Shown here in pieces: positions 35,961 through 51,104 of a stretch of 64,000 nucleotides of DNA. The notes beneath the pieces are model-generated. The model saw nothing but the letters and a program-made list of their open reading frames with translations, had not been told where the DNA came from and did no database searches. Source of the DNA: Albidovulum marisflavi (GTDB lineage Bacteria; Pseudomonadota; Alphaproteobacteria; Rhodobacterales; Rhodobacteraceae); the NCBI RefSeq assembly GCF_025751435.1, contig NZ_JAOWKY010000001.1:549001-613000 (forward strand), given 5' to 3'. Made by a program: the position numbers and the translations under genes. Every line of letters starts with the position of its first letter. The stretch's first letter is position 1.

Positions 35961-35976
35961 ATGGCGGCTCCGTCAG
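35961..35976. repeat. imperfect copy of the tRNA-Arg 3'-end att sequence (outer left end)
   Basis: ATGGCGGCTCCGTCAG matches the sequence across the tRNA-Arg 3' end at 51090-51105 in 15 of 16 positions, same orientation. It is flanked by an inverted pair GTATGGC/GCCATAC (35959-35985), as expected for the core of a tyrosine-integrase site. It probably marks the left boundary of the accessory region. Confidence 0.6.
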
Positions 35977-36451
35977 CAGCCATACTCAATTTCGAGGTAT
36001 TCCCGACATTTCCGGATTTCCCCCGTATTCACTGGGCCTTGCAGCCACATCGTTCCAAATTAGTCTAGCGCATTTCACGGCAGCGCGGACACGGGGCGAG
36101 ATGCGGGACGGGCGAGGCGCGAAGGCGACGAGCTTGGACATGCGTACAGATTGCCAATAATGGCCTAAACGGCGGATGCAGGGGCAGCCACGGGTAGTTC
36201 GCGCTCGTGCTCCGACGAAGCCTTTCGCGAGCGGCCCAAAGCGGTCGCTCGACCATGGTCCGGAATGTTTCGTCTGCACCCCGCATTGCTGACATTCGCT
36301 CTGGGAGCCAAACCCCCAGAATACCGCCACTCCTTTGACCCGGCTCTGTAGTCCTACGGATTTCAAACCCGCGCCAAAAGGTTAAGCTGGTCCCAAGTCA
36401 TGATGCGCCGGCCGCATCGCTCGCACCGGGATCGGATACTTGGTAGAAGTA
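35977..36451. other. 475-base gene-free stretch at the left edge of the accessory region
   Basis: No gene with a credible ribosome-binding site or protein-like composition is seen on either strand. Short segments such as AAAGCGGTCGCTCG and GCATTGCTGACATTCGCTC (about 36238-36303) resemble degenerate intergenic sequence I associate with Rhodobacterales genomes. The last part should contain the sensor-kinase promoter. Confidence 0.45.
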
Positions 36452-37987
36452 ATGCAACCTGTCAGAGACCTTTTGCGCCACCCTCTGGCAAAAGGGATGG
36501 CTTGGCTTCTGCTGTCCGGATTTGCCCTGGCGGCACTTGCGGGTGTCGAGCGCAGCGCGCGACTGTCCGAGCTGACGGCAGAGAGCGAGCGTCTTCACGC
36601 GGTCGCCTCGCAACGCGTTGACCAGCACGACGCGCACCTGACGGCGCTTTCGGCCATCGCGGTGGCCGGAGCAGCGCAGCGTCCCGACCTCTTTCGCGAG
36701 GTCGCGGGCGCGATCATGCGCTTCTACCCCCGCATCGTGAGCGTCTCTCTCGTGCCGCTCGACGGCCGGGACGGCGCGCTGGAAATCGGTATCCGCGAGG
36801 CTGAGCTTCGGGAACTCATCCGCGCGGCAGCCGAACGCTCGACCGGCGCCCCGGTCCTGATGCGGTATCCCTCTGACCGCCCGTACTATCTGATCGTCAA
36901 ACGCAGCCCCAACACCGACGCGGCGCGCTACGGGCTCGCTCTGGTGATCGACGCGGCGGCGCTGCTTGACGGGGATTCCGCCTATTGGGCGCGGGCGGAG
37001 GCGACGCGCTGGCTGTCGCTTCCCGATGGCACGCCGCTGATTGGTGATGCGGGGGATGGGCGCGCGCCGCAGTTCGCACGCGCCCTTTCCAGCGGTACGC
37101 AGCCGCTTGAGCTGAGGACCGGCATCCGCATGACTGTCTCGGACATCCTTCCGACGGGCCGGATGGCCTTGGTCCTTGCGCTGATCGCATTGAGTGCCAT
37201 AGCGCTGCGCACGATCGGGCGGCAACGTGCCAAGGTCCGCGCCGCGGAAGAGCGGGCCGAATTGAGCGGTCTCGAGACCCGTCTCAGCCACGCATCCCGG
37301 GTGAACGCGCTCGGCGAAATGGCAAGTGGCATTGCGCATGAACTGACCCAGCCTCTGACGGCGATCCTGGCGCAGGCGCAGGCGGCCCGGCATCTGGCCG
37401 CACGGGGCGACGTGGAACGCGTCGCGGGAATCCTCGAGGATGTTGTCGGACAGACGCGGCGCGCCTCCGCGATCCTCGAGCGCCTGCGGACGTGGACGCG
37501 GCCGCGGGAACGCAAAGCGGAACTCATCGATCTCAGAAACTGCATCCGCGTGGCCGAAACCCTTCTCGCGGGACAAGCCGCAGAGATTGGCGCCCGCCTT
37601 TCCCTGACGATGCCTTCGGAGCCTGTGATGGTCGAAGGCGATCGCGTGGAACTCGAACAGGTACTGTTCAACCTGATGCGGAATGCCCTGGACGCAGTCG
37701 CCGAGAGTGCCGGCGCGCGAGAGGTCGTCGTCGTCGCGTTCCTGGACGGCGAGATGGCAGTGACCGAGGTGAGCGACACCGGTCCCGGCATTCGGCCGGA
37801 CATTCGGGTCCGGCTGTTCACGCCCTTCGTGACGACGCGGGAGAACGGAACTGGGCTCGGCCTCACGCTCAGCCATCGCCTGGTCGAGCGGGCCGGTGGC
37901 GATCTGACGGTGGTCGATGCCCGCCAGGGCGCGCGGTTCAGGATCAGCCTGCCGCTGGCCCCTACCGCGCGGGAGGCTGCGGAATGA
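36452..37987 (+). CDS. sensor histidine kinase
   Basis: The 511-aa protein has a first transmembrane segment (about residues 17-33), a predicted periplasmic domain of about 200 residues without recognisable family, and a second transmembrane segment (238-254). The kinase core follows: H-box GEMASGIAHELTQPL (His296), N-box NLMRNALDAV, G1 DTGPGI and G2 NGTGLGLTLSH. The DctB/FixL-like core predicts phosphotransfer to the FixJ-type regulator whose ATG overlaps this stop. The signal is unknown; the genes that follow encode exported proteins, one HbpS-like, so extracytoplasmic haem or redox sensing is an idea. Start ATG 36452 is likely. Confidence 0.9.
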   Translation: MQPVRDLLRHPLAKGMAWLLLSGFALAALAGVERSARLSELTAESERLHAVASQRVDQHDAHLTALSAIAVAGAAQRPDLFREVAGAIMRFYPRIVSVSLVPLDGRDGALEIGIREAELRELIRAAAERSTGAPVLMRYPSDRPYYLIVKRSPNTDAARYGLALVIDAAALLDGDSAYWARAEATRWLSLPDGTPLIGDAGDGRAPQFARALSSGTQPLELRTGIRMTVSDILPTGRMALVLALIALSAIALRTIGRQRAKVRAAEERAELSGLETRLSHASRVNALGEMASGIAHELTQPLTAILAQAQAARHLAARGDVERVAGILEDVVGQTRRASAILERLRTWTRPRERKAELIDLRNCIRVAETLLAGQAAEIGARLSLTMPSEPVMVEGDRVELEQVLFNLMRNALDAVAESAGAREVVVVAFLDGEMAVTEVSDTGPGIRPDIRVRLFTPFVTTRENGTGLGLTLSHRLVERAGGDLTVVDARQGARFRISLPLAPTAREAAE

Positions 37988-38592
37988 CCGCGCCGGTCTA
38001 TCTCGTAGATGACGATGCGGGGGTTCGGGATGCGCTCTCTCTGCTGCTGTCCACGGTGGGGATCGATGTCAGGACCTTTCCGGGCCCAGAGGATTTCCTG
38101 TCGGCGCTCCCAAAGCTCGATCCGGGCTGCCTGATCCTCGATATCCGGATGCCGGCGATCTCGGGATTGAAGCTGCAGGAACGCCTGACGGCAAGTGGTG
38201 TGGCCTGGCCGACCGTCGTGATTTCCGGGCACGGCGACATCGAGGCCTGCCGAAAGGCGTTCCGCAATGGAGCAATCGACTTTCTCTCGAAACCGGTGGA
38301 CGAACAGGACCTCATCGATGCCATTCAGAAGGGGCAGGCCGCACTTGACCGCGCCGCCGAAGCCGATGCCGAGCGTCGCGAAACGATGGCGCTGTTGGCT
38401 GGGCTGACGCCACGCGAGCGCGAAGTGCTGTCACTGGTGGCACGCGGGTTCGCAACCCGTGACATCGCCGCAGCGCTCGATGTCTCGCCGCGGACGGTCG
38501 AAAGCCATCGTGCGGCAATCGGGGCCAAACTGGGCACGACCTCGCCCGCCGAGATGACGCGCCTTTGGATCGAGGCCGAGAGCGCTCCGTAG
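37984..38592 (+). CDS. FixJ/LuxR-family response regulator
   Basis: The 202-aa protein has a receiver domain (VYLVDDDAGVRDAL; phosphorylation site Asp53 in LILDIRMP; Lys103 in FLSKPVD) and a C-terminal LuxR-type helix-turn-helix (LTPREREVLSLVARGFATRDIAAALDVSPRTVESHRAAIGAKL pattern). It starts at the ATG overlapping the kinase stop. The nearest plausible targets are the three exported-protein genes immediately downstream. The family usually activates transcription as a phosphorylated dimer. Confidence 0.93.
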   Translation: MTAPVYLVDDDAGVRDALSLLLSTVGIDVRTFPGPEDFLSALPKLDPGCLILDIRMPAISGLKLQERLTASGVAWPTVVISGHGDIEACRKAFRNGAIDFLSKPVDEQDLIDAIQKGQAALDRAAEADAERRETMALLAGLTPREREVLSLVARGFATRDIAAALDVSPRTVESHRAAIGAKLGTTSPAEMTRLWIEAESAP

Positions 38593-38681
38593 TTCTACGG
38601 AGCCGTGGGGGTGACCTACGAATGGGGCGGGCGCCCGCGATGGCGTAGGTGGTATCCTGTCACCAGCAAAGGAGAACCGAC

Positions 38682-39164
38682 ATGCTCAGAACGACCGCTT
38701 TGCTCGCCGCACTTGCCGCCCCCGTGGGCGCGGTGGCTCAGGACCTGCCGACCAACCCCTATCTGCCGCTCGCCATGGCGAGTGACGCTGCGAATGCGGC
38801 TCTCGAAGCCTGCGCCGCCGAAGGCCACAGCGTCAGCGTCGCCATCGTCGCCCGCGACGGCAATACCAAGGTGCTTCTGAAGGCGGACAATTCCGGCCCG
38901 CACACGGCGTCAAGCGCGACCGGCAAAGCCTTTACCTCGGCCGGTCTCGGTCGGGACACCGCCGGACTTGCCGAATTCATTTCCGGAAACGCGGCCAACG
39001 ATGGTCTGCGCGACATGGACCCGCGCCTCGTGATCCAGGCCGGCGGTCTGCCGATCCGGATCGGTGAGGCGCTCCTTGGCGGCATCGGCGTCGGCGGCGC
39101 ACCGTCGGGCGCGATCGACGCGGATTGCGCCCGTGCTGGTCTCGACGCGATCGGCGCCGAGTGA
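38682..39164 (+). CDS. exported GlcG/HbpS-family haem-binding-like protein
   Basis: The 160-aa protein starts at ATG 38682 after AAAGGAGAA. A signal peptide (MLRTTALLAALAAPVGAVA) precedes a GlcG/HbpS (DUF336) domain: ALEACAAEGHSVSVAIVARDGN, the central GPHTASSATGKAFTSAG, and the C-terminal GGLPIRIGEALLGGIGVGGAPSGAIDADCARAGLDAI. In Streptomyces, HbpS binds haem outside the cell and modulates the kinase SenS. Here it lies directly downstream of a kinase/regulator pair, a parallel worth noting. Haem binding is not shown by the sequence. Confidence 0.85.
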   Translation: MLRTTALLAALAAPVGAVAQDLPTNPYLPLAMASDAANAALEACAAEGHSVSVAIVARDGNTKVLLKADNSGPHTASSATGKAFTSAGLGRDTAGLAEFISGNAANDGLRDMDPRLVIQAGGLPIRIGEALLGGIGVGGAPSGAIDADCARAGLDAIGAE

Positions 39165-39225
39165 AGCCAACGGGGTCCGCGCGTCATGCGCGGGCCCGTC
39201 TTCATCCCCCAGGAAAGACAGACCC

Positions 39226-39900
39226 ATGCGCCGTCCTGCGATCGTTGCACTTCTCATCGGACTTGCCGGGCCGCTCTCGGCGCAAACCGCTCCCTCGACG
39301 AGCGAAGTCGCGGACTATGACGGTCTCTTCCGGGCCGCCCATGAGGGCGATGTCGCCGAGATTGAACGACTGGTGGCGCAAGGTGCTGACGTTGATGCCC
39401 GCGACTCCAGGGGCCGGACGCCCGTGCATGTGGCGGCCTTCGCCTCCGAAGACGAAGCGCTGCGTGCCTTGGCCAAAGCCGGTGCCGACATGAACGCCCT
39501 CGAATACCGGGCCTACGACGTCGTGACGATCGCCGCGGTTGCGGGCGACCCCGACCTGATGTCGCTCGCCATCGAACTGGGCAACGATCCGGGCTTGGTG
39601 ACGAGCCCCTATCTTGGCACCGCGCTGATCGCTGCGGCGCATCTCGGGCATGCCGAAGTGGTGCGGCGCCTGATCGACGCGGGTGCACCGCTCGATCATG
39701 TAAACAACCTGCACTGGACGGCCGTCATGGAAGCCGTCTTGCTGGGGGACGGCGGCCCGGATCACCAGGCGGTGCTCGATGCGCTCCTCTCTGCCGGGGC
39801 CGACCGAACCCTTGCCGACCGCGATGGCGTCACACCGCTTCAGCACGCCGAGGCGCGCGGCTTTACAGAGATGGTCGAACGTCTTCGCCGGGAGGATTGA
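39226..39900 (+). CDS. exported ankyrin-repeat protein
   Basis: The 224-aa protein (ATG 39226, AGGAAAG upstream) has a signal peptide ending near GPLSAQ and about five ankyrin repeats. Examples are DGLFRAAHEGDVAEIERLVAQGADVDARD and GRTPVHVAAFASEDEALRALAKAGADMNA; further copies lie in the C-terminal half, ending with DGVTPLQHAEARGFTEMVERL. Ankyrin repeats mediate protein binding. Periplasmic ankyrin proteins in proteobacteria have been linked to protection from peroxide, often beside catalases. It sits between the HbpS-like and cupin genes, 61 bases after the former. Confidence 0.9.
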   Translation: MRRPAIVALLIGLAGPLSAQTAPSTSEVADYDGLFRAAHEGDVAEIERLVAQGADVDARDSRGRTPVHVAAFASEDEALRALAKAGADMNALEYRAYDVVTIAAVAGDPDLMSLAIELGNDPGLVTSPYLGTALIAAAHLGHAEVVRRLIDAGAPLDHVNNLHWTAVMEAVLLGDGGPDHQAVLDALLSAGADRTLADRDGVTPLQHAEARGFTEMVERLRRED

Positions 39901-40157
39901 CCGGCGCGTGCGACCGGAAACTCGCTGAATTCTCCAGGGCATGTGCAAGCAATCGGACCAGGGCCGCCATCGACGCGACATGCGGCCAGCGGCTGCCTTG
40001 ACCTCGGAAACGGCCTCCGGCTGCAGGTGCGGCGCCTCAGGCCGGAAAGTGGCTGAATCTTCTTCACGCTTGGCTGAAAAAGTAACGTTTGTCCGCAGCA
40101 GTGGTAACAGACGATGATTTTGACGTTGTTGAACCGAGCCATTGAAGGAGATGTCAC
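39901..40157. other. intergenic region between ankyrin and cupin genes
   Basis: The 257 bases show no gene. The final 90 bases are AT-richer (GCTGAAAAAGTAACGTTTGT and GACGTTGTTGAA) and probably include a separate promoter for the cupin gene, so the three exported-protein genes may not be one transcript. Confidence 0.35.
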
Positions 40158-40601
40158 ATGTTCCGGCTCACGAGCGTCTTGCCTTGCGTAGATCCGATCA
40201 AAGCCATTCCGGTCGCGTTGATTTGTGCGATGGCGGCAGGCAGCGGGCCCGTCCTTGCCGATGCACATTTTCCCACCGAACATAAGGGCCTTACCGTCGA
40301 ACAGCTTGGGGCCGTTCCCGCGGACTCTGTGCAGCGTCAGGTGGGCCTCGGTGGCCACATACTGCTCCTGCGGCGGATCACGATCGAACCGGGCGGTCAA
40401 ATCGCGCGCCACAGTGCTGCCGAGGTGCCTGGCGTGGTCTATATGGAAACGGGCACCTGGACAGAGGGGCGCGACGGTAGCGAAACGTCACATGTGGCGG
40501 GCGAGACCTTCATCGAGGATGCCGAGACGGTGCACTGGTTCTTCAATCGTGGGGATGCACCGGCATCGGCCCTGGTCTGCGACATCAAACCCGCAAGTTA
40601 G
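40158..40601 (+). CDS. exported cupin-domain protein
   Basis: The 147-aa protein starts behind an AAGGAGAT site. Residues 1-35 look like a signal peptide (VALICAMAAGSGPVLADA). The mature chain is a single cupin barrel: RRITIEPGGQIARHSAAEVPGVVYMETG (motif 1 with one clear His and a Glu) and VHWFFNRGD (motif 2). The incomplete His set leaves metal binding uncertain. It is the third exported protein downstream of the two-component pair. Function unknown; small periplasmic cupins may bind small ligands. Confidence 0.82.
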   Translation: MFRLTSVLPCVDPIKAIPVALICAMAAGSGPVLADAHFPTEHKGLTVEQLGAVPADSVQRQVGLGGHILLLRRITIEPGGQIARHSAAEVPGVVYMETGTWTEGRDGSETSHVAGETFIEDAETVHWFFNRGDAPASALVCDIKPAS

Positions 40602-40800
40602 AACCGAGGGCGCGCGGCGCACCGGCATGGGGCGATCTCGTCAATCGGGTGGGGCGTCTAACCCGGTATCGCCGGGTTTTGAGGCCGGTGGAAGCGGGGG
40701 CCTCTTGCGGCGATCAACACTTGTATTTGAACGTGGGGCTCCCGCCATGTACTCTTTCCCGCATGTGGTTACCAGGTTTGACCCGGAAACTCGGGCTTTG

Positions 40801-41733
40801 ATGCGAAAGCTTCCTCCTTTCGCAGCTGTGCGGGCCTTCGAGGCTGCTGCTCGACTTGGCAGTATCAAGAAGGCCTCAGAGGAGCTTTGTCTCACGGCAT
40901 CTGCCGTCAGCCATCAGGTTCGTGCCCTCGAAGAATATCTGGACACGTCGCTCTTTCGGCGCGCCGGAAACCGGGTTGACCTCACCTTGACCGGGCGCGC
41001 CTACGCGGGGAAGCTGACGACCCTCCTCGATGCCTTTGACGAGACGAGCAGGTCCGTGAAAGAGGTCGGACGAAAGCCCTTTCGCGTTCATTGCACCCCT
41101 GGCTTTGCCGCCCGCTGGCTTGTTCCCCGGCTTGATCGCCTGGCATTCGGGAATCGGGTGCGGATCTCGGTCTCAAACGGCGCGCCATCAACCGATTTCA
41201 CTTCGAATGCGGCGGACGTGGTCATTCAATGGGCAGACCAGGCGGTCTCGGGTGTGGTCACCGAACCGCTCATGCGATCTGCCCGGTATCCCGTGGCCAG
41301 CCCCTCCTTCATACGATCCGAAGGGTTGCACGAGTCTGGGGACCTTTGCCGCACGACTCTGATGCACGATGAGACGATGGATGCCTGGGGCGAATGGTTT
41401 GAGGCCGCCGGCATCGATCCTCCGATATTTCCACGCGGCCCGACATTTCCGAACTGCGAGCTTGCGACGACGGCTGCCGAACAAGGGCAGGGTGTCGCAC
41501 TGGCATATGATGCGGTCGTCCGATCCACGCTTGAAAGCGGCGCGCTTGTCCGACTTTTTGATACGGTCACCATGCCATTCGTCATCTATTCGGTTGCATA
41601 TGCTGCATCTCGAAAGGACGATCCCATGGTGCGAGAGTTCTCGCAGTGGATTCACGGGGAGGCGGAGGCAGAGGGAACCGCCGCAAATGCCGTACCTGTT
41701 CGCGAGTTATCGGGCGGCCGCAGATCGCGGTAA
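40801..41733 (+). CDS. LysR-family regulator (GcvA-like)
   Basis: The protein of about 310 aa has the N-terminal helix-turn-helix LPPFAAVRAFEAAARLGSIKKASEELCLTASAVSHQVRALEEYLDTSLF pattern, the GcvA/AmpR subgroup form, and a substrate-binding domain. Start ATG 40801 gives the typical N-terminus (MRKLPPF); ATG 40747 would add 18 residues, and neither has a strong Shine-Dalgarno site. Target genes are not obvious: no divergent gene lies upstream, and downstream is a gene-poor stretch. It may be a remnant of a larger cluster or regulate in trans. Confidence 0.88.
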   Translation: MRKLPPFAAVRAFEAAARLGSIKKASEELCLTASAVSHQVRALEEYLDTSLFRRAGNRVDLTLTGRAYAGKLTTLLDAFDETSRSVKEVGRKPFRVHCTPGFAARWLVPRLDRLAFGNRVRISVSNGAPSTDFTSNAADVVIQWADQAVSGVVTEPLMRSARYPVASPSFIRSEGLHESGDLCRTTLMHDETMDAWGEWFEAAGIDPPIFPRGPTFPNCELATTAAEQGQGVALAYDAVVRSTLESGALVRLFDTVTMPFVIYSVAYAASRKDDPMVREFSQWIHGEAEAEGTAANAVPVRELSGGRRSR

Positions 41734-42026
41734 AGCAACCTGATCAAATGCGCCCGGCAGGCAGAAGGGCCAATCCATGGCCTGGGCTCGAGCCAAGGCT
41801 GCAAGTCTTGCCCAGGACTTCTTTGGCCAGTGATTGCCCTGTTCGCATCGCTGACGTTGATGTGCGCTGCGGCGAGACGCTGCTTTTCCGCTGATGGCGT
41901 CGAAAAGTCACTTTTGCAGCGTGGCAAGTCGTTTGATTTACGCGACTTATGGCTATCATCTTCGCAGGTTTATCGGCCACCAATCCGACCGCCATGGACT
42001 CTTACCCTGTCCGCTGGGCCGACGCG
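41734..42026. other. 293-base gene-free stretch
   Basis: No credible gene is visible. A segment around 41842-41890 (CGCATCGCTGACGTTGATGT...) loosely resembles 43530-43575 (CGCATTGAAGATGTTGATGT...), both inside the accessory region, suggesting decayed copies of the same intergenic sequence. Confidence 0.35.
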
Positions 42027-42407
42027 TCATTCCTGGTCGTGCAGGGCGCGTGCGGTGATGATGGCGGGCATGTTGCCCTCCGCCCATTCGATGAGCGCCT
42101 GCAAGCGCGGCAGAAATCCCTGCCCGATGTCCGTAAGGCTGTAGCTGACGCTTGGCGGCTTGGTGTCGAAGACCTCGCGCAGGATGATGCCGTCGCGCTC
42201 CAGGTCCCGCAGGGACTGGGTGAGCATCCGCTTCGAAATATCGGGCAGCGCGCGCAACAGCGCGTTGAACCGGCGGGGGCCGTCGCCCAGCTCCAGCAGG
42301 ATCAACACGGGCCATTTGGCCGAGACATGGTCAAGGATCTGCCGCACCGGGCAGTTGGACGGATCGAAGCCCTGTGCCCTCCACTGCTCGAGCCTGCTGT
42401 CGGACAT
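42027..42407 (-). CDS. HxlR-family regulator with a conserved N-terminal cysteine
   Basis: The 126-aa protein (ATG 42407; GTG 42416 possible) is a winged-helix HxlR protein. [58 protein letters not shown] is the classic pattern, ending in [15 protein letters not shown]. Cys19 in the N-terminal arm is at the position used by redox or quinone sensors such as QorR, YodB and HypR. It is divergent from a QorB-like quinone oxidoreductase and surely represses it through the palindrome between them. Oxidation or quinone adducts at Cys19 would release repression. Confidence 0.9.
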
Positions 42408-42478
42408 GTCTCTCACGGGGTGGTTCCCTTTATGTGACCTTGTTCCAAAAACCTGCCTCCTTTCGCGCTCACCATTAA

Positions 42479-42493
42479 GTCTCTAATTGAGAC
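42479..42493. promoter_or_regulatory. palindromic operator candidate for the HxlR regulator
   Basis: GTCTC-TAATT-GAGAC is a perfect 15-base palindrome midway between the divergent regulator and oxidoreductase starts (34 bases from the oxidoreductase ATG). Position and symmetry fit HxlR/QorR-type operators that overlap promoters in both directions. Confidence 0.6.
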
Positions 42494-42526
42494 CTATAAA
42501 CGATTCGAGACCTGAAAGGAATGGAA

Positions 42527-43384
42527 ATGGCGACCTATCTCGTGACCGGAGCCTCCGGCCAACTCGGCCAGCTTGTCGTGGACCACCTGAAAACCCTCGT
42601 CCCGGCGGACGAAATCATCGCGCTCGTGCGCTCCGACGCGGCGCGCAAGATCTATGAGGCGAAGGGCGTGGCGACACGCCGGGGCGACTACGACGACCCC
42701 CAAAGCCTGCGGGCCGCGCTTGAAGGCATCGACCGGGTGCTGCTGATCTCGTCGTCCGAGATCGGCAAGCGAGCGGCGCAGCACCGGAATGTCATCGACG
42801 CGGCGAAGGCGGTGGGCGTTGGCTTTGTTGTCTACACCTCGCTCTTGAACGCCGACCGCAGCGGCATGGCACTGGCCGAGGAACACATCGCGACCGAGGC
42901 GGCGCTGAAGGAAAGCGGCCTTCCCCATGCCATCCTGCGCAACGGCTGGTATTCGGAAAACATCGCCGGCACGGCAACCCAGGCACTGAGCCTTGGACGG
43001 CAGTTTGGCGCCTCCAGCGGTGGGCGTTTCGCCACCGCGTCGCGTCAGGACTTCGCAGAGGCCGCGGCCAATGTGCTGGCCGGAGAGGGGCACGAAGGCA
43101 AGACCTACGAACTCGGCGGCGACAGCCCCTTCACGATGGCCGAATACGCGACCCTGCTGAGCGAGTTGTCGGGCAAGGACGTGGCCTATGTGAACCTGGA
43201 CGAAGACGCGTACCGCTCGGCGCTCGTGGGTGCCGGGCTTCCGGAAGGGTTTGCCGCCCTCCTGGCCGACAGCGACGCGAAGGCCGCAGAGGGTGCGCTG
43301 GCGACAGAGAGCCGAGACTTGGCCCGCCTGATCGGCCGCCCCACGACACCGATGCGCAGGACTTTGGAAGAGCTGATCGCTTGA
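42527..43384 (+). CDS. NmrA/QorB-type NAD(P)H:quinone oxidoreductase
   Basis: The 285-aa protein starts at ATG 42527, six bases after GAAAGGA (an ATG at 42521 is too close to it). It has the Rossmann motif YLVTGASGQLGQLVV, ALVRSDAAR, GDYDDPQSLRAALEGIDRVLLISS, and the QorB-like YTSLLNADRS and LRNGWYSENI. These atypical SDR proteins reduce quinones with NADPH without flavin. Together with the HxlR regulator it forms a quinone or electrophile stress module carried in the accessory region. Confidence 0.88.
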   Translation: MATYLVTGASGQLGQLVVDHLKTLVPADEIIALVRSDAARKIYEAKGVATRRGDYDDPQSLRAALEGIDRVLLISSSEIGKRAAQHRNVIDAAKAVGVGFVVYTSLLNADRSGMALAEEHIATEAALKESGLPHAILRNGWYSENIAGTATQALSLGRQFGASSGGRFATASRQDFAEAAANVLAGEGHEGKTYELGGDSPFTMAEYATLLSELSGKDVAYVNLDEDAYRSALVGAGLPEGFAALLADSDAKAAEGALATESRDLARLIGRPTTPMRRTLEELIA

Positions 43385-43880: not shown

Positions 43881-43896
43881 AATGGCGGCCCCGTCA
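43881..43896. repeat. attL: 16-bp exact copy of the tRNA-Arg 3' end region
   Basis: AATGGCGGCCCCGTCA is identical to 51089-51104, which spans the CCA end and T-arm side of tRNA-Arg(CCT), in the same orientation. It is flanked by the inverted pair ATGGCGG/CCGCCAT (43882-43904). Together the two copies bracket the integrase-bearing 7.2-kb element. Confidence 0.85.
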
Positions 43897-43942: not shown

Positions 43943-44062
43943 GTGTTACCCGCCATAAAGCCCGCCTATAACTTTACGCTTGCCCTGGCCTCGATAAACG
44001 AGGTGGATGAAGAGCTTGGTGAGCTAACGGGTGGAATCGTAAGATTAATCGTCGGCCTTTAG
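43943..44062 (+). pseudogene. 39-codon fragment near attL
   Basis: A short frame from GTG 43943 to TAG 44062 encodes a protein-like sequence (AYNFTLALASINEVDEELGELTGG). Its start resembles the YxFTLxL...DEL...L opening of a widespread family of small proteins of about 80-100 aa, which here would be truncated. No ribosome-binding site is visible, and the first bases overlap the 15-bp repeat, so it may be a remnant or chance. Confidence 0.3.
43946..43960. repeat. 15-bp direct repeat, left copy (possible integrase arm site)
   Basis: TTACCCGCCATAAAG occurs here, 50 bases inside attL, and again at 50967-50981, about 108 bases inside attR and just upstream of the integrase gene, in the same orientation. 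Position in both arms suggests integrase or excisionase binding. Confidence 0.55.
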
Positions 44063-44155
44063 GCTGACGCGTGATGCGCGCCGCGATTGCTTGACTTCAT
44101 CTCACGACTCCTAAGACAACAAGGCTCAGAAGAGACCGAGGGCAGATACTTGATC

Positions 44156-44611
44156 ATGGCAAGATGGCTTTTCAGAATTTTTGCAGTTGGCGTGATTGGC
44201 GTCCTAGGGCTTGCCACCTATGATTTTTACAGGGGTGGTTACTTCAGTCTGCCGGGAATACCAGACAATGCATATCTCATCGATTTCAGGGACGGCTTCA
44301 GGGCTGTGGTAATAGATCCTGAGGTGTCCGACCCTTTGTATGCAAACGTTCCAAGGCATTTTCGTCGCCTAAGGAATGCCAACCCCGACAGAAGGTATCT
44401 TGGGGTGCCTTTCGAAGTAGCGCCTTGGCTTCGGGATGCTTGGTCGTTTTGCAAAGCGCCAACCGAGGAAGAACGGGTTTACTTCCAAGAAAGTATGCCC
44501 GACGAATGGAAGCAATCGCTTGAATACGCGAGACTTGATGCTGTTTGCTTGAACAGCGTCGATGGTAAGCAGGTTCCGCGTGGGCTGATTTACTCGGTTC
44601 CAAACCTCTGA
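44156..44611 (+). CDS. membrane-anchored protein of unknown function (island cargo)
   Basis: The protein of 151 aa (ATG 44156; TTG 44087 would give 174 aa) has one N-terminal transmembrane helix (WLFRIFAVGVIGVLGLATY). A soluble, probably periplasmic domain of about 120 residues with two cysteines (FCKAP and VCLNS) follows. No family is recognised. It is the only plus-strand gene of the element and lies at the end opposite the integrase, followed by its own terminator. Its codon use is less GC-biased than the host genes. As terminal island cargo, a defence or host-interaction role is possible but unproven. Confidence 0.6.
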   Translation: MARWLFRIFAVGVIGVLGLATYDFYRGGYFSLPGIPDNAYLIDFRDGFRAVVIDPEVSDPLYANVPRHFRRLRNANPDRRYLGVPFEVAPWLRDAWSFCKAPTEEERVYFQESMPDEWKQSLEYARLDAVCLNSVDGKQVPRGLIYSVPNL

Positions 44612-44675: not shown

Positions 44676-44785
44676 CTTAATGTCTTCGGCTTGGCTTGCG
44701 CTCCATGCCCAAGAAGGACCGTGCTAATGACTAAGGCACAGGAGGCCTGCAACTCTCTGATTGGTCGGCTTGCATGGGTTGAAGG

Positions 44786-45034
44786 CTAATCGCGCAATAG
44801 CTGCTCGATTTCCCTCGCCTCCCGCACAAGCTCGCTCAGCATTTGCCGTTCCTCTGTCCAATCGCCCGACCGCATTCCGTGCTTCCAGGTCGGGTGATCC
44901 TTGCCGGAACGATGCCCGCCGCCCGCTCCGTGAAACCGGCACACGCTCCACCCTTTCACCGAAGGCCCTTTGCACCTCTCGCCCGTCCGCTTTGATGTTG
45001 CCGTGCACCTGGGGGCCGCGTGGGCCTTGCTCAT
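44786..45034 (-). CDS. small cysteine/histidine phage-type protein
   Basis: The 82-aa protein (ATG 45034, GAAAGGTGA upstream) has the layout RCTATSKRTGERCKGPSVKGWSVCRFHGAGGG followed by HPTWKHGMRS and a helical acidic tail. Cys10, Cys21, Cys32 and His35 could bind a metal. Similar HGG/HGA-motif proteins sit near small terminase genes in prophages of alphaproteobacteria, but their function is not established. It is the last gene of the minus-strand operon, 11 bases after the preceding stop. Confidence 0.65.
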   Translation of the reverse strand: MSKAHAAPRCTATSKRTGERCKGPSVKGWSVCRFHGAGGGHRSGKDHPTWKHGMRSGDWTEERQMLSELVREAREIEQLLRD

Positions 45035-45044
45035 GGGGTTGTCG

Positions 45045-45593
45045 TCACCTTTCATCCGTGGCCCTCCCACCATGCTGCACATTGCCGACGACTGCCTGCC
45101 CGCCATTTTCGACCGTGACGCGCTCCACCCGGACCACTTGCTGCCCCTTCGAGCGGTAGCGCTTCAGCGTGTCCATTTGCGCGGCGTAACTGCGCAGGAG
45201 CTTGTTGTAGGCCCGTTCTGCGGCGTCTTGCTGAGTAATGGTCTCAACATGGTTCAGGCGACGGGCAAACATCATCACTGCTTGATGAGTTGCCGCCATC
45301 TGGGCGAGGATCAGCATTTCCGCCGCATCTCTTGGCTGCATTGAGTCCACGAAGCCAAGCGCGAAGTTGGTGGCTTCCTCGTCAAAACGCTTGCCGTGAG
45401 AGCCAAGGTTTGTGAGCTGCTGCAAGACACCCGTCGAAACATGCCTGCTGCCCGCACCGGCCTTGATGCGCGAGTAGTCGCCGGAAATGGCAATTTCCAG
45501 GTTCTTGCCCTCAAGCTTGAACGCAACCGACGGAATTTCTCGCTCATCCTGCACAGGCAGATTGGCCCCATTCTGCTTTTCGTCATCGGTCAA
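45045..45593 (-). CDS. hypothetical island protein
   Basis: The 182-aa protein most likely starts at TTG 45593, seven bases after a GGAGG. It is a helical protein with no recognised domain: acidic start, VAFKLEGKNLEIAISGDYSR, then LILAQMAATHQAVMMFARRLNHVETITQQDAAERAYNKLLRSYAAQMDTL and a basic C-terminus. The spacing to the next gene suggests co-translation. Comparable proteins accompany small HGG-motif proteins in phage-derived islands; a DNA-packaging or regulatory role is only a guess. Confidence 0.6.
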   Translation of the reverse strand: MTDDEKQNGANLPVQDEREIPSVAFKLEGKNLEIAISGDYSRIKAGAGSRHVSTGVLQQLTNLGSHGKRFDEEATNFALGFVDSMQPRDAAEMLILAQMAATHQAVMMFARRLNHVETITQQDAAERAYNKLLRSYAAQMDTLKRYRSKGQQVVRVERVTVENGGQAVVGNVQHGGRATDER

Positions 45594-45804
45594 AGGATTG
45601 CCTCCAGGCGTGTTGGGAAGGTTGAAATCGTGATGATCAAGCGGTCGCGGATTGCCCCACCTCGGGCACCCGACTGGCCAGCCGCATCTTGCCTCACTAC
45701 CACCCACCCCCCTTTAGGGGTGGGGTGGTGGGGCAGTGCGGCAGGTCGGGAATCGTGCCCCACTGCCTCACCTTGCCCCACCTCGGTTTCAGGGGTGGTG
45801 GGGT
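45594..45804. other. C-rich repeat region, candidate replication origin or regulatory hairpin
   Basis: The 211 bases between the helicase-like gene and the next gene contain TTGCCCCACCTCGG twice in direct orientation (45652-45665 and 45773-45786), a further GTGCCCCACTGCC, and inverted GGGGCAGTGC. A long, nearly perfect inverted repeat CCACCCACCCC...GGGGTGGGGTGG (about 45700-45728) lies between them. Placement beside primase and helicase genes suggests an origin of the element. Confidence 0.4.
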
Positions 45805-46983
45805 TCATTCGGTTGCCCATTCGCCCACCTCTAGGCAGGGCCGCAGGTTCCTCTTGGCGTCTTCGTGCTGCACCTCTCGCAGCGCCCCGCTTGCTAGCCA
45901 GGTTTTCAGCATCCGGGTAATCCGGGCCTTGTCCTTCGCGGCATCCATCCCCAGCACCGAGGCCACGATTTCGCCCGCCCAATCGCTCTTGGCTTGATTG
46001 CTGGCACGGGGTGGATTGCCCGCCTTCCATGCGTCCTGAATGGCGCGCTGCACCGCCAGAAGGTCGGCGGCACTCAGCCCCTCGAAATCGTCGGGCCATT
46101 CCCAGGCTTCCGTCACACCCACGCTATCGCCGTTCGGCAGGTCAACCGACACCATGCGCCGCCATTCGCGTTTGCCCGGTGGGGCAAGGTTTGCCTTGTC
46201 ACGGTCGATGCTGAAGTAGGTATTTGGGTCCGAGGAAACCCCGGCATCGGCCTTCTGCGCATCGCTCATGCGGTTCAGGACACGGGCAGACCGGGCAGCA
46301 CCCAGCAACGCCACCGCGCCCCGGCTGCTTTCCGAGGACGCTTCCTCGCCCCCCAGCTTGCGGGTGTGGTGGACCAACTCAATCGCGCAGTTGCACCGCT
46401 CGGCCACGCGGCCCCACTCCTTCGCCACAAGGTCAATTGCGCCGTTGTCGTTCTCATTCACCCGGTGCGAGGACACGAAGGGGTCTACAATCAGCACGTC
46501 GATTTGGAGTGCCTCGATTTCCGCGATGATGGCGGCAACCTCGGGCGCGTTGATGGTCGCGCCGTCCCGCGCCTGGGTGGCGGTGCAAAGCCCACGCTCG
46601 CGCCCGCTGTCCAGAAAGAGGCGTCCACCCAGCGCCTCTGCGTCTATGCCGTGGTGAATCATGGTAGCCGACACCCGGCGCTCAAGCTCGTCCCTTGGAT
46701 CTTCGAGGTTCACCACCCAAACCCGAAGCGGCCCCGAAACCCATTCTCCCAGAAGGTTGCGGCCCGAGGCCATTGCGACTGCCTCGCAGATGGTCAGGGA
46801 GGATTTTCCCACGCCACCAGGGGCGACGGTGACGCTGACAAAGCGGCGGATCAGATGCCGCCCATAGAGCCATTCCCTGCGCGCGAGGGCGGCAGGGTCA
46901 CGCCAGACAAACGGGGTCGCCTTGATCGGTTCCGGCGCACCGGTTGGAATGAAGGTGACAGGCTGAGGGGTGATCGCAGTCAT
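45805..46983 (-). CDS. RecA/RepA-like AAA ATPase (replicative helicase candidate)
   Basis: The 392-aa protein has Walker A in VAPGGVGKSSL (about residues 53-63) and Walker B in IDVLIVDPFVSSH. ELVHHTRKLGGEE and SSRGAVALLGAARSARVLNRM are the arrangement of RepA-like hexameric helicases of plasmids and satellites. A C-terminal helical domain, probably winged helix, follows (about residues 280-392). Its start overlaps the primase stop (ATGA). With the primase it would replicate the excised element. Confidence 0.85.
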   Translation of the reverse strand: MTAITPQPVTFIPTGAPEPIKATPFVWRDPAALARREWLYGRHLIRRFVSVTVAPGGVGKSSLTICEAVAMASGRNLLGEWVSGPLRVWVVNLEDPRDELERRVSATMIHHGIDAEALGGRLFLDSGRERGLCTATQARDGATINAPEVAAIIAEIEALQIDVLIVDPFVSSHRVNENDNGAIDLVAKEWGRVAERCNCAIELVHHTRKLGGEEASSESSRGAVALLGAARSARVLNRMSDAQKADAGVSSDPNTYFSIDRDKANLAPPGKREWRRMVSVDLPNGDSVGVTEAWEWPDDFEGLSAADLLAVQRAIQDAWKAGNPPRASNQAKSDWAGEIVASVLGMDAAKDKARITRMLKTWLASGALREVQHEDAKRNLRPCLEVGEWATE

Positions 46984-47840
46984 GCGGCGGCCCTCCCCTG
47001 CAATACGTCATTCCAGTCCAGACCCTGCGGCGCGGGCAGAAGCGACACATCCCAGCCCAGCGCATGGGCGGCACTCGCCAGCACCCGGCCCGCGTTCTCG
47101 CCCGCGTCATCACCGTCTGTTGCGACGATCAACCGGCCTGGGCGTTCGGGCAGGCGCAGCGCCTTCATTCCGGGGGCAGAAAGGGCAGCCCATACCGTCG
47201 CAGGGCCTTCCAGAAGGCCGCTGCACAGGCTCAGGCCCGTTTCTATGCCCTCACACACCACAAGCGCCCCAGGCCCTTCAGAGAGCGGCACAGCACCACC
47301 GCCGCAGGGTCCAAGCATCATCTTGGCGCTGCCCGTGATCCGGCGTCCGGTCTTCTCGAAGAAGGTGCGATGCACCGCCCCGGTGGAAACCTCGGCAACC
47401 ATCGCAGAGAGCCAGCGCCCGCTTGGTGCGTGGTGCAGGTCCGTTGCCCACCGCAGCGACAGCGGAAGGTCACAGGTGATGCCCCGACCTCGCAGGTATG
47501 CCTCTCCCTTCGTGCCGCTGATCGGCATGGAGCGGCACCAGAGGGCGCGGGCCTTGTCCAGTTGCGCCCGTTCATAGTCGGCCCGCTTTGCCTCGGCCTC
47601 GGGCTGGGCGATGGGATCATGGGCGAGGCGGTCGAGCGGCAGTCCCGCCGCCTTCACGATTTCGCGGAAGTCGCAGCCGCCCTTGTGGCAGTAGGCCAGA
47701 AGCCTGCCGCCCTCATCCCGTAGCGAGAGGGCACGTTGATCGGCGCGGCGCTCGGGTTGGCAGACGGGGCACGGCGCGTTGCCGTGATTGCCGTGCCACT
47801 CTCCCCCAATGGCCAGGGTGATTTGACGCGCGTCCGTCAT
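46980..47840 (-). CDS. Toprim-domain DNA primase
   Basis: The 286-aa protein (ATG 47840, GGGAGGG upstream) has an N-terminal CHC2-like zinc ribbon with CPVC ... CHKGGC (about residues 22-60) and DFREIVKAAG. A central region carries YLRGRGI, and the C-terminal Toprim fold has the acidic glutamate in VVCEGIETGLSL and the DxD-like RLIVATDGDDAGENAG. It would make primers for element replication. Its start overlaps the stop of a 33-aa frame and its stop overlaps the helicase start, showing tight coupling. Confidence 0.88.
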   Translation of the reverse strand: MTDARQITLAIGGEWHGNHGNAPCPVCQPERRADQRALSLRDEGGRLLAYCHKGGCDFREIVKAAGLPLDRLAHDPIAQPEAEAKRADYERAQLDKARALWCRSMPISGTKGEAYLRGRGITCDLPLSLRWATDLHHAPSGRWLSAMVAEVSTGAVHRTFFEKTGRRITGSAKMMLGPCGGGAVPLSEGPGALVVCEGIETGLSLCSGLLEGPATVWAALSAPGMKALRLPERPGRLIVATDGDDAGENAGRVLASAAHALGWDVSLLPAPQGLDWNDVLQGRAAA

Positions 47841-47938
47841 TCTTGGCCCTCCCCATAGACAAGCTGGGCGAGGATACCCGCCACGGGGCCTGAGAGGCCG
47901 CACAGACGGCGCAGTCGAGCGAGGCGCAGGCTGATCAT
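47837..47938 (-). CDS. 33-aa coupled small protein
   Basis: A short frame starts at the ATG overlapping the stop of the winged-helix gene (ATGA) and stops at a TGA overlapping the primase start (ATGA). The peptide MISLRLARLRRLCGLSGPVA... is basic, amphipathic and ends in GEGQE. The primase Shine-Dalgarno sequence lies inside it. The four-base overlaps on both sides support translation, either as a peptide or as a coupling device. Confidence 0.5.
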   Translation of the reverse strand: MISLRLARLRRLCGLSGPVAGILAQLVYGEGQE

Positions 47939-48288
47939 GCCGCCACCTCCAGCCCATCCAGGCGGGCCACTGCGCTGCGCAGGAAATATATGCCATAGTC
48001 ACCGACCCCGGCCTGCCTGCTGCCGGGGTAAATGACGGTTTCAACGTCCAGGCCAAGCTCGTGCTTAAGGACGCAGACGATATCCGAGATCCGCACCGGG
48101 GAGGCGCAATAGACCGGCCCCCGCATCAGCAGGTCAAGAATCTGGCGACGGCGCTTTTGCAGGGTCACGGTGACGGCTTCGCCGTCCCTGCGCGTGATCC
48201 GGTAGTGCGCCGGGGCGCGGTCTTTCGGCAATTCACCCACGCGGTAAATGCGCTGGGCGTTTCGGGGAGGGTTAATACTGGATTTCAT
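47935..48288 (-). CDS. winged-helix-like DNA-binding protein
   Basis: The 117-aa protein (ATG 48288, AGGA five bases upstream) has a basic, Pro-rich N-terminus. A likely winged-helix domain follows: KRRRQILDLLMRGPVYCASPVRISDIVCVLKHELGLDVETVIYPG pattern, ending GVGDYGIYFLRS. The N-terminal YRITRRDGEAVTVTLQ gives a beta strand pair. It may regulate the replication operon or act at the origin. It is the first gene of the ATGA-linked chain leading to the primase and helicase. Confidence 0.65.
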   Translation of the reverse strand: MKSSINPPRNAQRIYRVGELPKDRAPAHYRITRRDGEAVTVTLQKRRRQILDLLMRGPVYCASPVRISDIVCVLKHELGLDVETVIYPGSRQAGVGDYGIYFLRSAVARLDGLEVAA

Positions 48289-48356
48289 ACTCGTCCTCAT
48301 TGCAGTTGAAACCGCGCAGAGCCTGAGCTAAATCTTGCGTATCGCCCGCAAGAATA

Positions 48357-48392
48357 AAGCCGCCGCCCATCGCACGGGTGGCGGTTTTCTTA
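48357..48392. terminator. bidirectional hairpin terminator
   Basis: GCCGCCGCCC-atcgcac-GGGTGGCGGT forms a strong stem flanked by AATAAAG on the left and TTTTCTTATTTC on the right. It ends the alpA transcript on the minus strand, separating it from the primase operon. Confidence 0.65.
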
Positions 48393-48575
48393 TTTCGATG
48401 ACTTGGCACGGGCTGCTTCCCAAGCCTCGATTTCCGACAGCTTCCAGCGGGTGCAGCCGGGGGTCAGGCTCAGTGGCTTTGGGAAGCCTCGTGATTGCAC
48501 CCACCGCCAAGGCGTTGCTCTGTGAACATCGTAGCGAGCGGCAACTTGCAGGTCAGAAAAGTAAGTGTCGGGCAT
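48390..48575 (-). CDS. alpA: AlpA-family excisionase/regulator
   Basis: The 61-aa protein (ATG 48575, GGAG nine bases upstream) is a MerR-like winged helix of the AlpA type: FSDLQVAARYDVHRATPWRWVQSRGFPKPLSLTPGCTRWKLSEIEAWEAAR pattern. AlpA/Xis proteins bind DNA to direct excision and activate element genes. Its position between the cargo/integrase unit and the replication operon is usual in P4-like and satellite elements. Confidence 0.88.
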   Translation of the reverse strand: MPDTYFSDLQVAARYDVHRATPWRWVQSRGFPKPLSLTPGCTRWKLSEIEAWEAARAKSSK

Positions 48576-48590
48576 TGCGTCTAGCTCCAA

Positions 48591-48700
48591 TCAGTTGCGA
48601 TTGGGCGCTATTAGAACTTCGCCGCGTTCGGAAATAAACACACATAATCAGAGGCTTAGGCGAATAGGCAAAAACCGCCATTTGCATAAGGACTTTGCGC
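48591..48700. other. AT-rich promoter region of alpA
   Basis: The 110 bases upstream of alpA contain AT-rich segments (AAATAAACACACATAATC, 48629-48651) that probably include its promoter. No repeat matching the att arms is seen. Confidence 0.35.
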
Positions 48701-49654
48701 CTAGGGTCGCAATCGCTTAGGCGGTTTCGCTGGAAACAGGGAGGCATATCGCGCTTGGAGAGCTTCGCCAGCGTCTCCAACCCGAATCTCAACGAGGTAC
48801 TGCTTTATCTGTCCCGCACCGTTCTTCCAAAGCTGGGGTTCTGCCTTCTTGCATTCCGCCAGTGCTATTTCAGAAATGACGCTGGGATTTTTGACGTCGG
48901 GATTTCGTGTGCAAACTGTCTCCATTGCGTCAAGCAATCTATGCATTCTTCTTTTCCTGGCGTCGCGCGAGGCTTTGGTGCCCTTGTCACCAGCATTCTT
49001 GCGCATCGCTTTTACATCTGATGCGGCGCTCTCGACACCAAGAGCAATAACCTCAAGGTCTCTCCAATAATAGCCAGCAGCAAAGTCGTTTTCTGCAACG
49101 TAATAATGGTATTGGTAGGCGGCGGCGACGTAAGCTGCAGAAGACCTAGGCAAGTTCATTAAGCAGTATTCGAATGCACCTGCAGCCCTCCAGTTTTGAC
49201 CAAACTGCCGCCGCAATTCATCCGCGCGGAGTTCTCCAATAAAGTCAATAACTTGCTGCGTTAGGCCTTGCCCAAGATATATATCTGCCGCTTCCAGCGT
49301 CTCAAAGGCTAGTGGGGAATCGAGGTCACCATAACTTCTAAATCCCACAGAAGATTTGGAATCTATGATATCCGTGTAGTGAACTTTAAGTGGATCAGAA
49401 AGCTCTCCTGGTACCTGCCAAGCCTCCTTGATCTCGGAGCCAACAGCGTTGCTCGCCATAAATTCTTTTGCTTCGTCTTCAGAGTAAAAAATAGTAAATC
49501 GCGTTTCCCTTGGAAGCATACCCGTCTTAATTGTCAACCAGACGGTCCAGAGTTGCCGACTCTCCCCCGATGGATGCAAGCTTTCGCCCGGCATGGTGTG
49601 CTGCAGGCTTACTTCCTCAACTATGCGCTTTCGCGTCGCTGTCCTCGGATCCAT
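48701..49654 (-). CDS. 317-aa unknown cargo protein coupled to the integrase
   Basis: The ATG at 49654 overlaps the integrase stop (TAATG), so translation is coupled. The N-terminal 70 residues contain WTVWLTIKTGMLPRETRFTIFYSEDEAKEFM, a beta-rich domain. The rest is mostly helical with YLGQGLTQQVIDFIGELR and repeated Ala/Tyr-rich helices (AAYVAAAYQYHYYVAENDFAAGYYW), a Lys/Arg-rich stretch (KGTKASRDARKRRMHRLLDAME) and a PPKRLRP tail. I recognise no family. AT-rich codon use differs from the host genes. Cargo next to integrases of satellites often encodes phage defence, which is an inference only. Confidence 0.7.
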   Translation of the reverse strand: MDPRTATRKRIVEEVSLQHTMPGESLHPSGESRQLWTVWLTIKTGMLPRETRFTIFYSEDEAKEFMASNAVGSEIKEAWQVPGELSDPLKVHYTDIIDSKSSVGFRSYGDLDSPLAFETLEAADIYLGQGLTQQVIDFIGELRADELRRQFGQNWRAAGAFEYCLMNLPRSSAAYVAAAYQYHYYVAENDFAAGYYWRDLEVIALGVESAASDVKAMRKNAGDKGTKASRDARKRRMHRLLDAMETVCTRNPDVKNPSVISEIALAECKKAEPQLWKNGAGQIKQYLVEIRVGDAGEALQARYASLFPAKPPKRLRP

Positions 49655-50946
49655 TACGCCAACCTCACCACCTCACCAAGAGCAGTACCGCCGCCCAACG
49701 CATCCGCCCAATCGCGCATCATGCGCCGCCGCTTCTCTACCATGTCGCCCCGACGATACGCCGCCTCAACAGCGTTGCTGATCTTATGCGCAAGGGCAAC
49801 CTCAGCCATTTCGCCGGGGTAGTTTGTCCGCTCGGCCACCCAATCGCGGAAGGTGCTGCGTAGCCCATGCGGCACGGCGGGGCGCTTGTTGCGCGGATCA
49901 AGGAAGCCGGGGCGCTGATTGCTGACTTCCGCCTCCTGCATACGCCGCATGGTGGCACTCAGGGTCATGTCGGAAAGCTGCCCACCCCGCGCGGCAGGGA
50001 ATACCAGCGGGTTGCCTTCGAGACGCGGCAGGGCTTTGAGCAGGTCAACGGCAGCCGGTGAGAGTGGCACCTTGTGTTCCCGTTTCATTTTCATGCGCTC
50101 GGCTGGGATCACCCACAAACCGCGCTCCAAGTCGATTTCATCCCATGCCGCCCCTCGGACCTCCCCCGACCGAACGGCGGTCAGGGCCAGAAACTCCAAG
50201 GCCCGCGCCCCGAAGCCTTCGCGCTTGCGCAGTTCAGCCATCCACCGGGGCGCATCATCAAGGGCAACGGCGGGGTGGTTTTCTTTCTCAGCCACCTTGT
50301 CAGGCGCAGGCAGAAGTTCCTTGAGGTTGCCAGCCCATCGCGCCGGATTGTCGCCAGTGCGATGCCCCGCAACCGTTGCCCATGACAGCACCGCCTCGAT
50401 GCGACCCCGCAGGCGCGATGCCGTTTCGGTCTTGCTCTGCCATATCGGTTGCAGCACCCGCAGAACGTCTTTCACCGTGATCTGCTCAACCTGCATCTGC
50501 CCGAGGACGGGCACCGCATACTGATCAAGCGTATTGCGCCACTGGTCGCGGTGCTTGGCATTCTTGAAGCCGTCCAGCTTCGCGGCAAGGCAGCGGTCAA
50601 CGGCGACCTTGAAAAGCAGTCCTCGGCCTTGCGCCGCCGCCAGGGCAGACTTAAGGGCCTTCCGTTCCTCCACGGGGTCGATACCCCGGCGGATCTGGTC
50701 TTTCGCTTCCCGCGCCCGCTCCCTGGCCTGCGCCAAGGTCACATCAGGAAAGCCGCCCAGTCCGATTTCACGGCGAGCTTTACCAACCTTCGTGCGCAGG
50801 AGCCAACTGCGGCCATCGTGCGGCGTGATCTGCAACATCAGGCCCGAAACGCCCCCGACAGAGACAACTTCGTTCCACTTGCTCTTTCCGCTGTGGCGCA
50901 GGTTTCGCACCTCAAGCGGGGAAAGTTCCTTGGCTAGCTTTGGCAT
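49654..50946 (-). CDS. int: tyrosine-type integrase (P4-like, DUF4102)
   Basis: The 430-aa protein (ATG 50946) has the N-terminal DUF4102 arm-binding domain (SGLMLQITPHDGRSWLLRTKVGKARREIGLGGFPDVTLAQARERA pattern), a core-binding domain, and the catalytic domain. Catalytic residues are Arg259 in TAVRSGEVRG, a Lys near 289, His360 and Arg363 in HGLRSTF, His387 in LAHKIS and the nucleophile Tyr397 in VEAAYRRGD. It recombines the element at the tRNA-Arg 3' end. A 15-bp repeat shared with the left end lies about 20 bases upstream of its start and may serve in autoregulation. Confidence 0.95.
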   Translation of the reverse strand: MPKLAKELSPLEVRNLRHSGKSKWNEVVSVGGVSGLMLQITPHDGRSWLLRTKVGKARREIGLGGFPDVTLAQARERAREAKDQIRRGIDPVEERKALKSALAAAQGRGLLFKVAVDRCLAAKLDGFKNAKHRDQWRNTLDQYAVPVLGQMQVEQITVKDVLRVLQPIWQSKTETASRLRGRIEAVLSWATVAGHRTGDNPARWAGNLKELLPAPDKVAEKENHPAVALDDAPRWMAELRKREGFGARALEFLALTAVRSGEVRGAAWDEIDLERGLWVIPAERMKMKREHKVPLSPAAVDLLKALPRLEGNPLVFPAARGGQLSDMTLSATMRRMQEAEVSNQRPGFLDPRNKRPAVPHGLRSTFRDWVAERTNYPGEMAEVALAHKISNAVEAAYRRGDMVEKRRRMMRDWADALGGGTALGEVVRLA

Positions 50947-50966
50947 CTTGGTAAAAACCCATACTC

Positions 50967-50981
50967 TTACCCGCCATAAAG
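50967..50981. repeat. 15-bp direct repeat, right copy (possible integrase arm site)
   Basis: TTACCCGCCATAAAG, identical to 43946-43960 and in the same orientation, lies between the integrase gene and attR. See the left copy. Confidence 0.55.
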
Positions 50982-51088
50982 GATACGATTGGGCGCGACT
51001 CTTTGCAACGGCCTGCGGCACGTTCTGCGTTATTTAATTGAAATTATGTGATGTTTCCGCAGCGTCTTGCGACAGGTTGCAGTGGGTG

Positions 51089-51104
51089 AATGGCGGCCCC
51101 GTCA
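51089..51104. repeat. attR inside the tRNA-Arg 3' end
   Basis: AATGGCGGCCCCGTCA covers the last bases of the tRNA (including CCA) plus two flanking bases. It is identical to attL at 43881-43896, so insertion kept the tRNA intact. Confidence 0.85.

Follow-up and report, generated by a model that had tools for sequence, protein, structure and literature searches.

Repeated ends of a tRNA-Arg gene

The 64,000-nucleotide stretch of the Albidovulum marisflavi genome analysed here (contig NZ_JAOWKY010000001.1, positions 549,001 to 613,000; hereafter the window) contains a single tRNA gene, tRNA-Arg(CCT) (51091-51166, minus strand; ARAGORN), and two accessory modules are stacked between this gene and the CASDH gene on the left. 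The 3' end of the tRNA gene occurs three times in the same orientation, as was first noticed in a sequence-only reading of this DNA. The tRNA-side attachment (att) site, AATGGCGGCCCCGTCA, lies within the 3' end of the gene (51089-51104, plus strand). An identical 16-bp copy is found in the middle (43881-43896, plus), and a 15/16 copy, ATGGCGGCtCCGTCAG, with a one-base frame shift, forms the distal site (35961-35976, plus). These copies bound a left module of 7.9 kb, in which no integrase is visible, and a right module of 7.2 kb, which has one; the gene contents reported for both in the earlier reading were found again. From sequence comparison, it is very probable that two elements entered tRNA-Arg(CCT) in turn, a left one that has since decayed and holds cargo, and then an integrase-bearing right one.

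With no more than one mismatch, the 15-base core occurs at eight sites in the 3.8-Mb genome, three of them being those of the stack and five lying elsewhere. From these five, 0.01 same-strand chance cores are expected in these 15 kb. When up to three mismatches are allowed, the window has six matches against 5.63 expected, and thus only near-identical copies are informative. By eye, both distal sites also carry 7-base inverted arms: ATGGCGG, 9 nt and CCGCCAT at 43882, and ATGGCGG, 9 nt and CAGCCAT at 35961, the arm CAGCCAT of the latter being 35977-35983. A search for inverted pairs with a minimum of 9 bases, for which these arms are too short, reported none.

The left module and its counterpart in a relative

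In one other species of the genus, represented by genome G021, an element of the left kind alone is present at tRNA-Arg, with 8.8 kb between two 16/16 att copies. Its tyrosine integrase gene lies at the end far from the tRNA, and it further encodes an AlpA-like excisionase, a product that weakly matches replication initiators, and an 822-aa protein assigned to phrog_684 (virion structural protein). Four pieces of this element are found in the window with their order kept, at 35961-36069 (85% identity), 36076-36144 (84%), 43633-43802 (84%) and 43803-43896 (85%). The outermost pieces are the two ends of the G021 element (109 bp, E = 6e-28, and 94 bp, E = 2e-22, in a search against 107 loci). Compared with G021, the window lacks about 7.2 kb, the integrase among it, between 36069 and 36076, and about 0.8 kb at 43802/43803; between the second and third pieces, the window has 7.5 kb and G021 about 0.36 kb. 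No integrase match was obtained within 35961-43881. At the level of homology, the left module is confirmed as a decayed element of the G021 kind from which the integrase region is gone. What is left of it, in addition to the att sites, is a left-end remnant (35977-36069, plus; with the att site counted in, 109 bp that are 85% identical to the end of the G021 element), a piece of a small HTH gene that by eye spans its first ~22 codons (36076-36144, minus; 84% to G021 and 79% to a sister element on contig C6, described below), and a right, tRNA-side end remnant (43614-43880, plus). The last 270 bp of the left module are old-element DNA.

It might be supposed that the repeat at 35961 is coincidental, and that the genes at 36-43 kb form a normal part of the chromosome next to a lone right element. 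The copy is only 15/16, and five other genomes have the kinase-HbpS-ankyrin part of the block among different neighbours and without the att core. However, the module matches the G021 element at its two ends (109 and 94 bp, 85%) and in inner pieces of 69 and 179 bp, all in the same order. Because the flank of the left repeat and the other end of the module both match this element, the repeat is not coincidental, and a reading that makes it so is extremely improbable. A chance origin of the repeat is ruled out by this end homology together with the 0.01 expectation. The sequence-only reading had proposed that cargo genes found without att copies in close relatives would mark the left repeat as coincidental. 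The first half of this proposal holds in part, as five genomes carry the cassette without the core; the second half fails, given that G021 matches both ends.

A left-type integrase surviving elsewhere in the same genome was also considered and rejected: the only relatives of the G021 integrase there are the right-hand copy (50-54% identity), a copy on C6 (35%) and one stop-containing fragment. This fragment (C2:1365355-1365765, locus L271) is 40% identical to the G021 integrase over 149 matched residues and has an internal stop. In 345 genomes of 344 genera, a sample that does not include G021, relatives of the end sequences were confined to the own genome (the window and C6) and to short weak matches across the family, of the left end in G277 and of the right end in G189, G334 and G377. 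The G021 virion protein is matched in 111 of 50,697 phage records, all below 60% identity, and by no loci in IMG/VR.

The right element and the proposed order of entry

An element of the right kind stands alone at tRNA-Arg in genome G011, also from another species of the genus, with a length of 10.45 kb and flanking 20-bp repeats in which the 16-bp core is included. DNA identity to the window is 90% over 44799-48604 (3.8 kb, the replication block) and 49658-51216 (1.6 kb, the integrase and tRNA side), and the distal arm TCCGCCAT is common to the G011 element and the window. The integrase of the right module (49654-51021, minus) is a tyrosine integrase with Arm-DNA-bind_3, Phage_int_M and Phage_integrase domains, 94% identical to that of G011 and 50% to that of G021.

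The middle repeat at 43881 joins the two elements. Its left flank, CTTACCTTCAGTATCGTCTAGAAAGTAA, comes from the tRNA end of the left element, being the sequence that adjoins the tRNA in G021 with a few changes, and its right flank is the distal end of a G011-type element. Thus the middle repeat is a chimera, which is what remains when a right element inserts into the left element's att site next to the tRNA. The comparison shows that an element of the G021 kind, which bears its own tyrosine integrase in G021, entered the tRNA-Arg 3' end downstream of CASDH. Its integrase, excisionase-like and virion genes are absent from the window, where regulatory and redox-type genes fill the cargo slot over 7.5 kb. 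An element of the G011 kind, whose integrase is related (50% identical), occupies the tRNA-side att site. The resulting layout is left att site, decayed element with cargo, chimeric att site, integrase-bearing element and tRNA. On this scheme, decay presumably came before the second insertion, the right element may still be able to excise between 43881 and 51089, and the left module would be at most a passenger. The suggestion that the left module is an older island without an integrase is supported on several sides, by G021 (left element only), by G011 (right element only), by the chimeric middle site and by the loss of the integrase region.

Alternatively, both modules could have arrived together as a composite formed elsewhere, and nothing in the data dates the two entries separately in this lineage. 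Joint arrival is nevertheless quite unlikely, since other species of the genus have the one kind at tRNA-Arg without the other, and of the three sites only the left one is mismatched, at a single base.

The tRNA-Arg site in related genomes

The CASDH gene was sought in 101 genomes (the own genome and 100 relatives), and 39 of them, the own genome included, have a match. A tRNA-Arg(CCT) match is present in all of the 21 other genomes of the genus. In seven of these (G004, G008, G012, G013, G014, G015 and G018), CASDH and this tRNA gene are 0.7-2.5 kb apart, the latter downstream, and the interval gave no relative of either integrase. Together with G021 and G011, each of which has a single module, these genomes support the two-element reading. 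In G010, CASDH and tRNA-Arg are 10.9 kb apart, likewise without a relative of either integrase, and G021 is the ninth genome in which the two are linked. Among 45 of 80 named records that were scanned, four have tRNA-Arg(CCT) 0.7-2.5 kb after CASDH; one is that of Frigidibacter sp. SD6-1, and the other three are probably among the seven genomes above. The tRNA end is repeated with a related integrase between the copies in three of the 21 genomes (G021, G011 and G002). Such a repeat, with up to two mismatches allowed, was not found in 16, for some of which the stretch is only 3-9 kb, and in the other two (G019 and G020) the contig stops at the tRNA. The element of G002 (L217 10675-19766) is of a third kind; it is 9.1 kb long and has a 51% identical integrase, an AAA_25 ATPase as well, and a gene with weak, below cut-off matches to terminase.

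Several observations weigh against two successive entries. Sites of the 15-base core with up to two mismatches are common in the genome (48, compared with 13 when the pattern is reversed). An element of the left kind at tRNA-Arg was seen in one relative only, G021. By CASDH identity, G011 is the nearest of the genomes searched, yet its tRNA-Arg is not near CASDH: the gene is not in the 13.4 kb on that side of tRNA-Arg, and there is no tRNA within 19.9 kb downstream of CASDH. The G+C content of cargo half A is host-like (66.5%, against 65.5% in the flanks). Finally, the core in the form TGGCGGCYCCGWYA, relatives' variants included, is absent from the five loci that carry the cassette in other genomes (15-20 kb). 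Entry of the two elements in turn remains very probable to us with these points included.

Gene content of the right element

Beside the integrase, the right element encodes an AAA_25 helicase-like replication ATPase (45805-46983, minus; Pfam 9.7e-42; 95% to G011), a Toprim primase whose start is uncertain (46980-48056, minus; 93%), and a 121-aa protein upstream of the primase (47935-48300, minus; 92%). Further genes are a 220-aa open reading frame (ORF) without a family (45045-45707, minus; 72% to G011), a small HGG-motif protein (44786-45106, minus; 85% to G011) with weak matches to phrog_3678 and HGGxSTG, the latter below the cut-off, and a 174-aa protein without a family (44087-44611, plus). 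Nine ORFs of the element were scanned, and they gave integrase, Toprim primase and AAA_25 matches and no capsid, tail or terminase match. Between the integrase and the replication genes, a 317-aa protein without a family (48701-49654, minus) is encoded where the G+C content is low (52%). At this place G011 carries a gene of 228 aa, and the position is possibly a second cargo slot. The 317-aa protein has no family match and no viral-contig relative, and four distant matches were found in 339 other genomes. Among the extra cargo of the G011 element are genes for a DNA cytosine methyltransferase and for a XamI-type restriction enzyme (L206 8310-10396).

IMG/VR has three loci for the integrase and 16 for the helicase, the latter at 38-54% identity, and the right-type helicase is found in 2 of 50,697 phage records, below 60% identity. 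In the family, it is present in 15 of 344 other genomes (E <= 1e-40), and eight of these 15 loci were examined. One of them, in G314, retains the primase (71%) and the 121-aa gene (63%) and has an integrase of 51% identity, with no tRNA in its 15 kb; in the G114 locus, a primase match of 30% was obtained. The T-stem of tRNA-Arg(CCT) itself (51102-51120) is GTCAGG/CCTGAG in the window and in G011. In most relatives it is GACAGG/CCTGTG or GATAGG/CCTATG, so that both sides differ from the window, and one side of the differing stem falls inside the att core.

The cargo slot of the left module

The cargo block of the left module (36145-43613) fills a slot that holds other genes in related elements. 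It begins with a histidine kinase (36440-37987, plus; Pfam HisKA and HATPase_c) and a response regulator with a receiver domain and a LuxR-type HTH (37984-38592, plus), which lies within the ORF 37492-38592 and whose start is taken from the 202-aa ORFs of relatives. An HbpS-like protein, exported by appearance (38649-39164, plus; Pfam HbpS-like, 4.8e-27), and an ankyrin-repeat protein (39064-39900, plus; true start probably ~39226, by eye) follow. The rest of the block encodes a cupin protein (40158-40601, plus; Pfam Cupin_2), a LysR-type regulator (40225-41733, plus; domains at ORF residues 201-479, true start later), an HxlR-type regulator (42027-42416, minus) and an NmrA/NAD(P)H-binding protein (42521-43384, plus).

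A second element of the G021 kind is found on contig C6 of the same genome (L258 2228-15158), at tRNA-Thr(GGT). Its integrase is a different one, 14 bp of the tRNA end are repeated, and its virion gene is shared with G021 (87%). Its slot contains ShosA and ShosT genes, and that of G021 a 128-aa gene of no known family. The slot contents thus differ in all three elements compared (the left module, G021 and C6).

Among the matches listed, near-full-length relatives of the kinase occur in 5 of the 100 other genomes (G006, 82% identity; G011, 65%; G056, 52%; G014, 51%; G033, 47%). These five loci align with 1.7 to 3.7 kb of the cassette at the DNA level, and the neighbours of the cassette, from the ORF lists inspected, differ from those in the window and among themselves. 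Because the five loci occur without such att copies, the cargo and the element have separate histories, and the kinase-regulator-HbpS-ankyrin cassette (36440-39900) travels or persists apart from the left element. In G056, the cassette is 0.4 kb from tRNA-Arg(TCT), and no repeat of the end of this tRNA was found in the 20-kb locus. The second half of the cargo (39950-43640) gave only short or weak matches, in 10 of the 21 other genus genomes. In gene make-up, the cassette resembles HbpS-SenS-SenR of Streptomyces, in which, according to the passages cited, secreted HbpS works with a sensor kinase and a regulator (PMC4991794, PMC3754957).

Capacity for movement

The right element has direct 15-bp copies of TTACCCGCCATAAAG near both ends (43946-43960 and 50967-50981, both plus). 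A 15-nt end repeat was reached by none of 2000 shuffles, and the G011 element has 14 bases, TTACCCACCATAAA, at both ends. We infer that the TTACCCGCCATAAAG copies may be arm-type integrase sites. With its integrase, identical cores and TTACCCGCCATAAAG at both ends, the right element is expected to be able to excise. The left module differs in these respects. Its distal core departs from the two other cores at one base. The G021 element has an 11-bp repeat, AATGTGGGACG, at both ends (11 is reached by 17 of 2000 shuffles), and the left copy of AATGTGGGACG belongs to the DNA that the left module has lost; the longest run common to the module's own ends is 9 bases (193 of 2000 shuffles). Since the core is mismatched and the end repeat is lost, excision of the left module alone looks unlikely.

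The right integrase might still excise the left module alone, or the whole 35961-51104 composite, making the left module a working passenger; mobilisation in trans by this integrase was the alternative raised in the sequence-only reading. The two distal sites are similar in layout, by eye (core, 9-nt spacer and inverted arm), the two integrases are 50% identical, and composite excision across unlike att sites is reported, in the part of the review cited, for the tRNA-Lys tandem of Streptococcus agalactiae (PMC5704250). On the other hand, the left core is off by one base from the other two, and the repeat seen in G021 is absent from the left end, which has no TTACCCGCCATAAAG in common either; a working passenger is thus doubtful. 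It is likewise unlikely, in our estimate, that the integrase of a satellite-like right element excises the 15-kb stack and carries the host signalling cassette between cells; if true, such a live composite would be the satellite counterpart of cis-mobilisation by conjugative elements. The left module is expected to be a fossil frame around kept genes, for which movement as a passenger is possible but unlikely.

Comparison with known systems

A three-step route of decay and accretion has been described for integrative elements, in which the integrase-less remnant is called a cis-mobilizable element (CIME), and satellite prophages are named among the tandem partners of integrative elements, in the passages of the review used here (PMC5704250). 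The stack corresponds in its sequence organization to this known pattern of decay plus tandem accretion, unusually well resolved. The left module meets the structural half of the CIME definition as given there, in that the integration genes are lost and the att sites are kept, one of them mismatched. A difference from the CIME tandem of those passages is that the relative of the left module in G021 has an integrase, an AlpA-like gene and a virion protein of phrog_684. Nine ORFs of the G021 element were scanned, with phage-type genes but no relaxase among the matches, so that conjugative descent of the left module is unsupported. The stacked elements are probably phage-satellite-like rather than conjugative; by appearance they are phage satellites, or small integrative elements of another type, whose cargo can be exchanged.

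The locus, for each half of which there is a relative with that kind of element only, illustrates how an element that has lost its mobility genes may persist at a tRNA gene and frame host-type genes, and how the end of this old element may serve as the target of a second one whose integrase is related. Decay plus accretion has been reviewed for conjugative and mobilizable elements, and is suggested here for satellite-like elements in this alphaproteobacterial group. The locus also points to a cargo slot that can be surveyed. P4-like satellites have a hotspot of exchangeable anti-phage genes, according to the passages cited (PMC9122126), and by analogy these hotspots are the closest parallel for the slot. 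As in the P4-like satellites described there, the elements are small and integrase-bearing and the slot content varies between relatives, for example ShosTA in the C6 sister element and XamI-type restriction-modification in the G011 element. Unlike those satellites as described there, the replication module is a Toprim primase and an AAA_25 ATPase, no helper phage is known, and the left slot holds signalling and redox-type genes. A two-island composite linked to a tRNA site is also found in Shewanella putrefaciens, where CGI48/GI21 is associated with tRNA-Trp; in the portion of that report cited (PMC8978831), one island lies within the other, whereas at tRNA-Arg(CCT) the two elements stand side by side.

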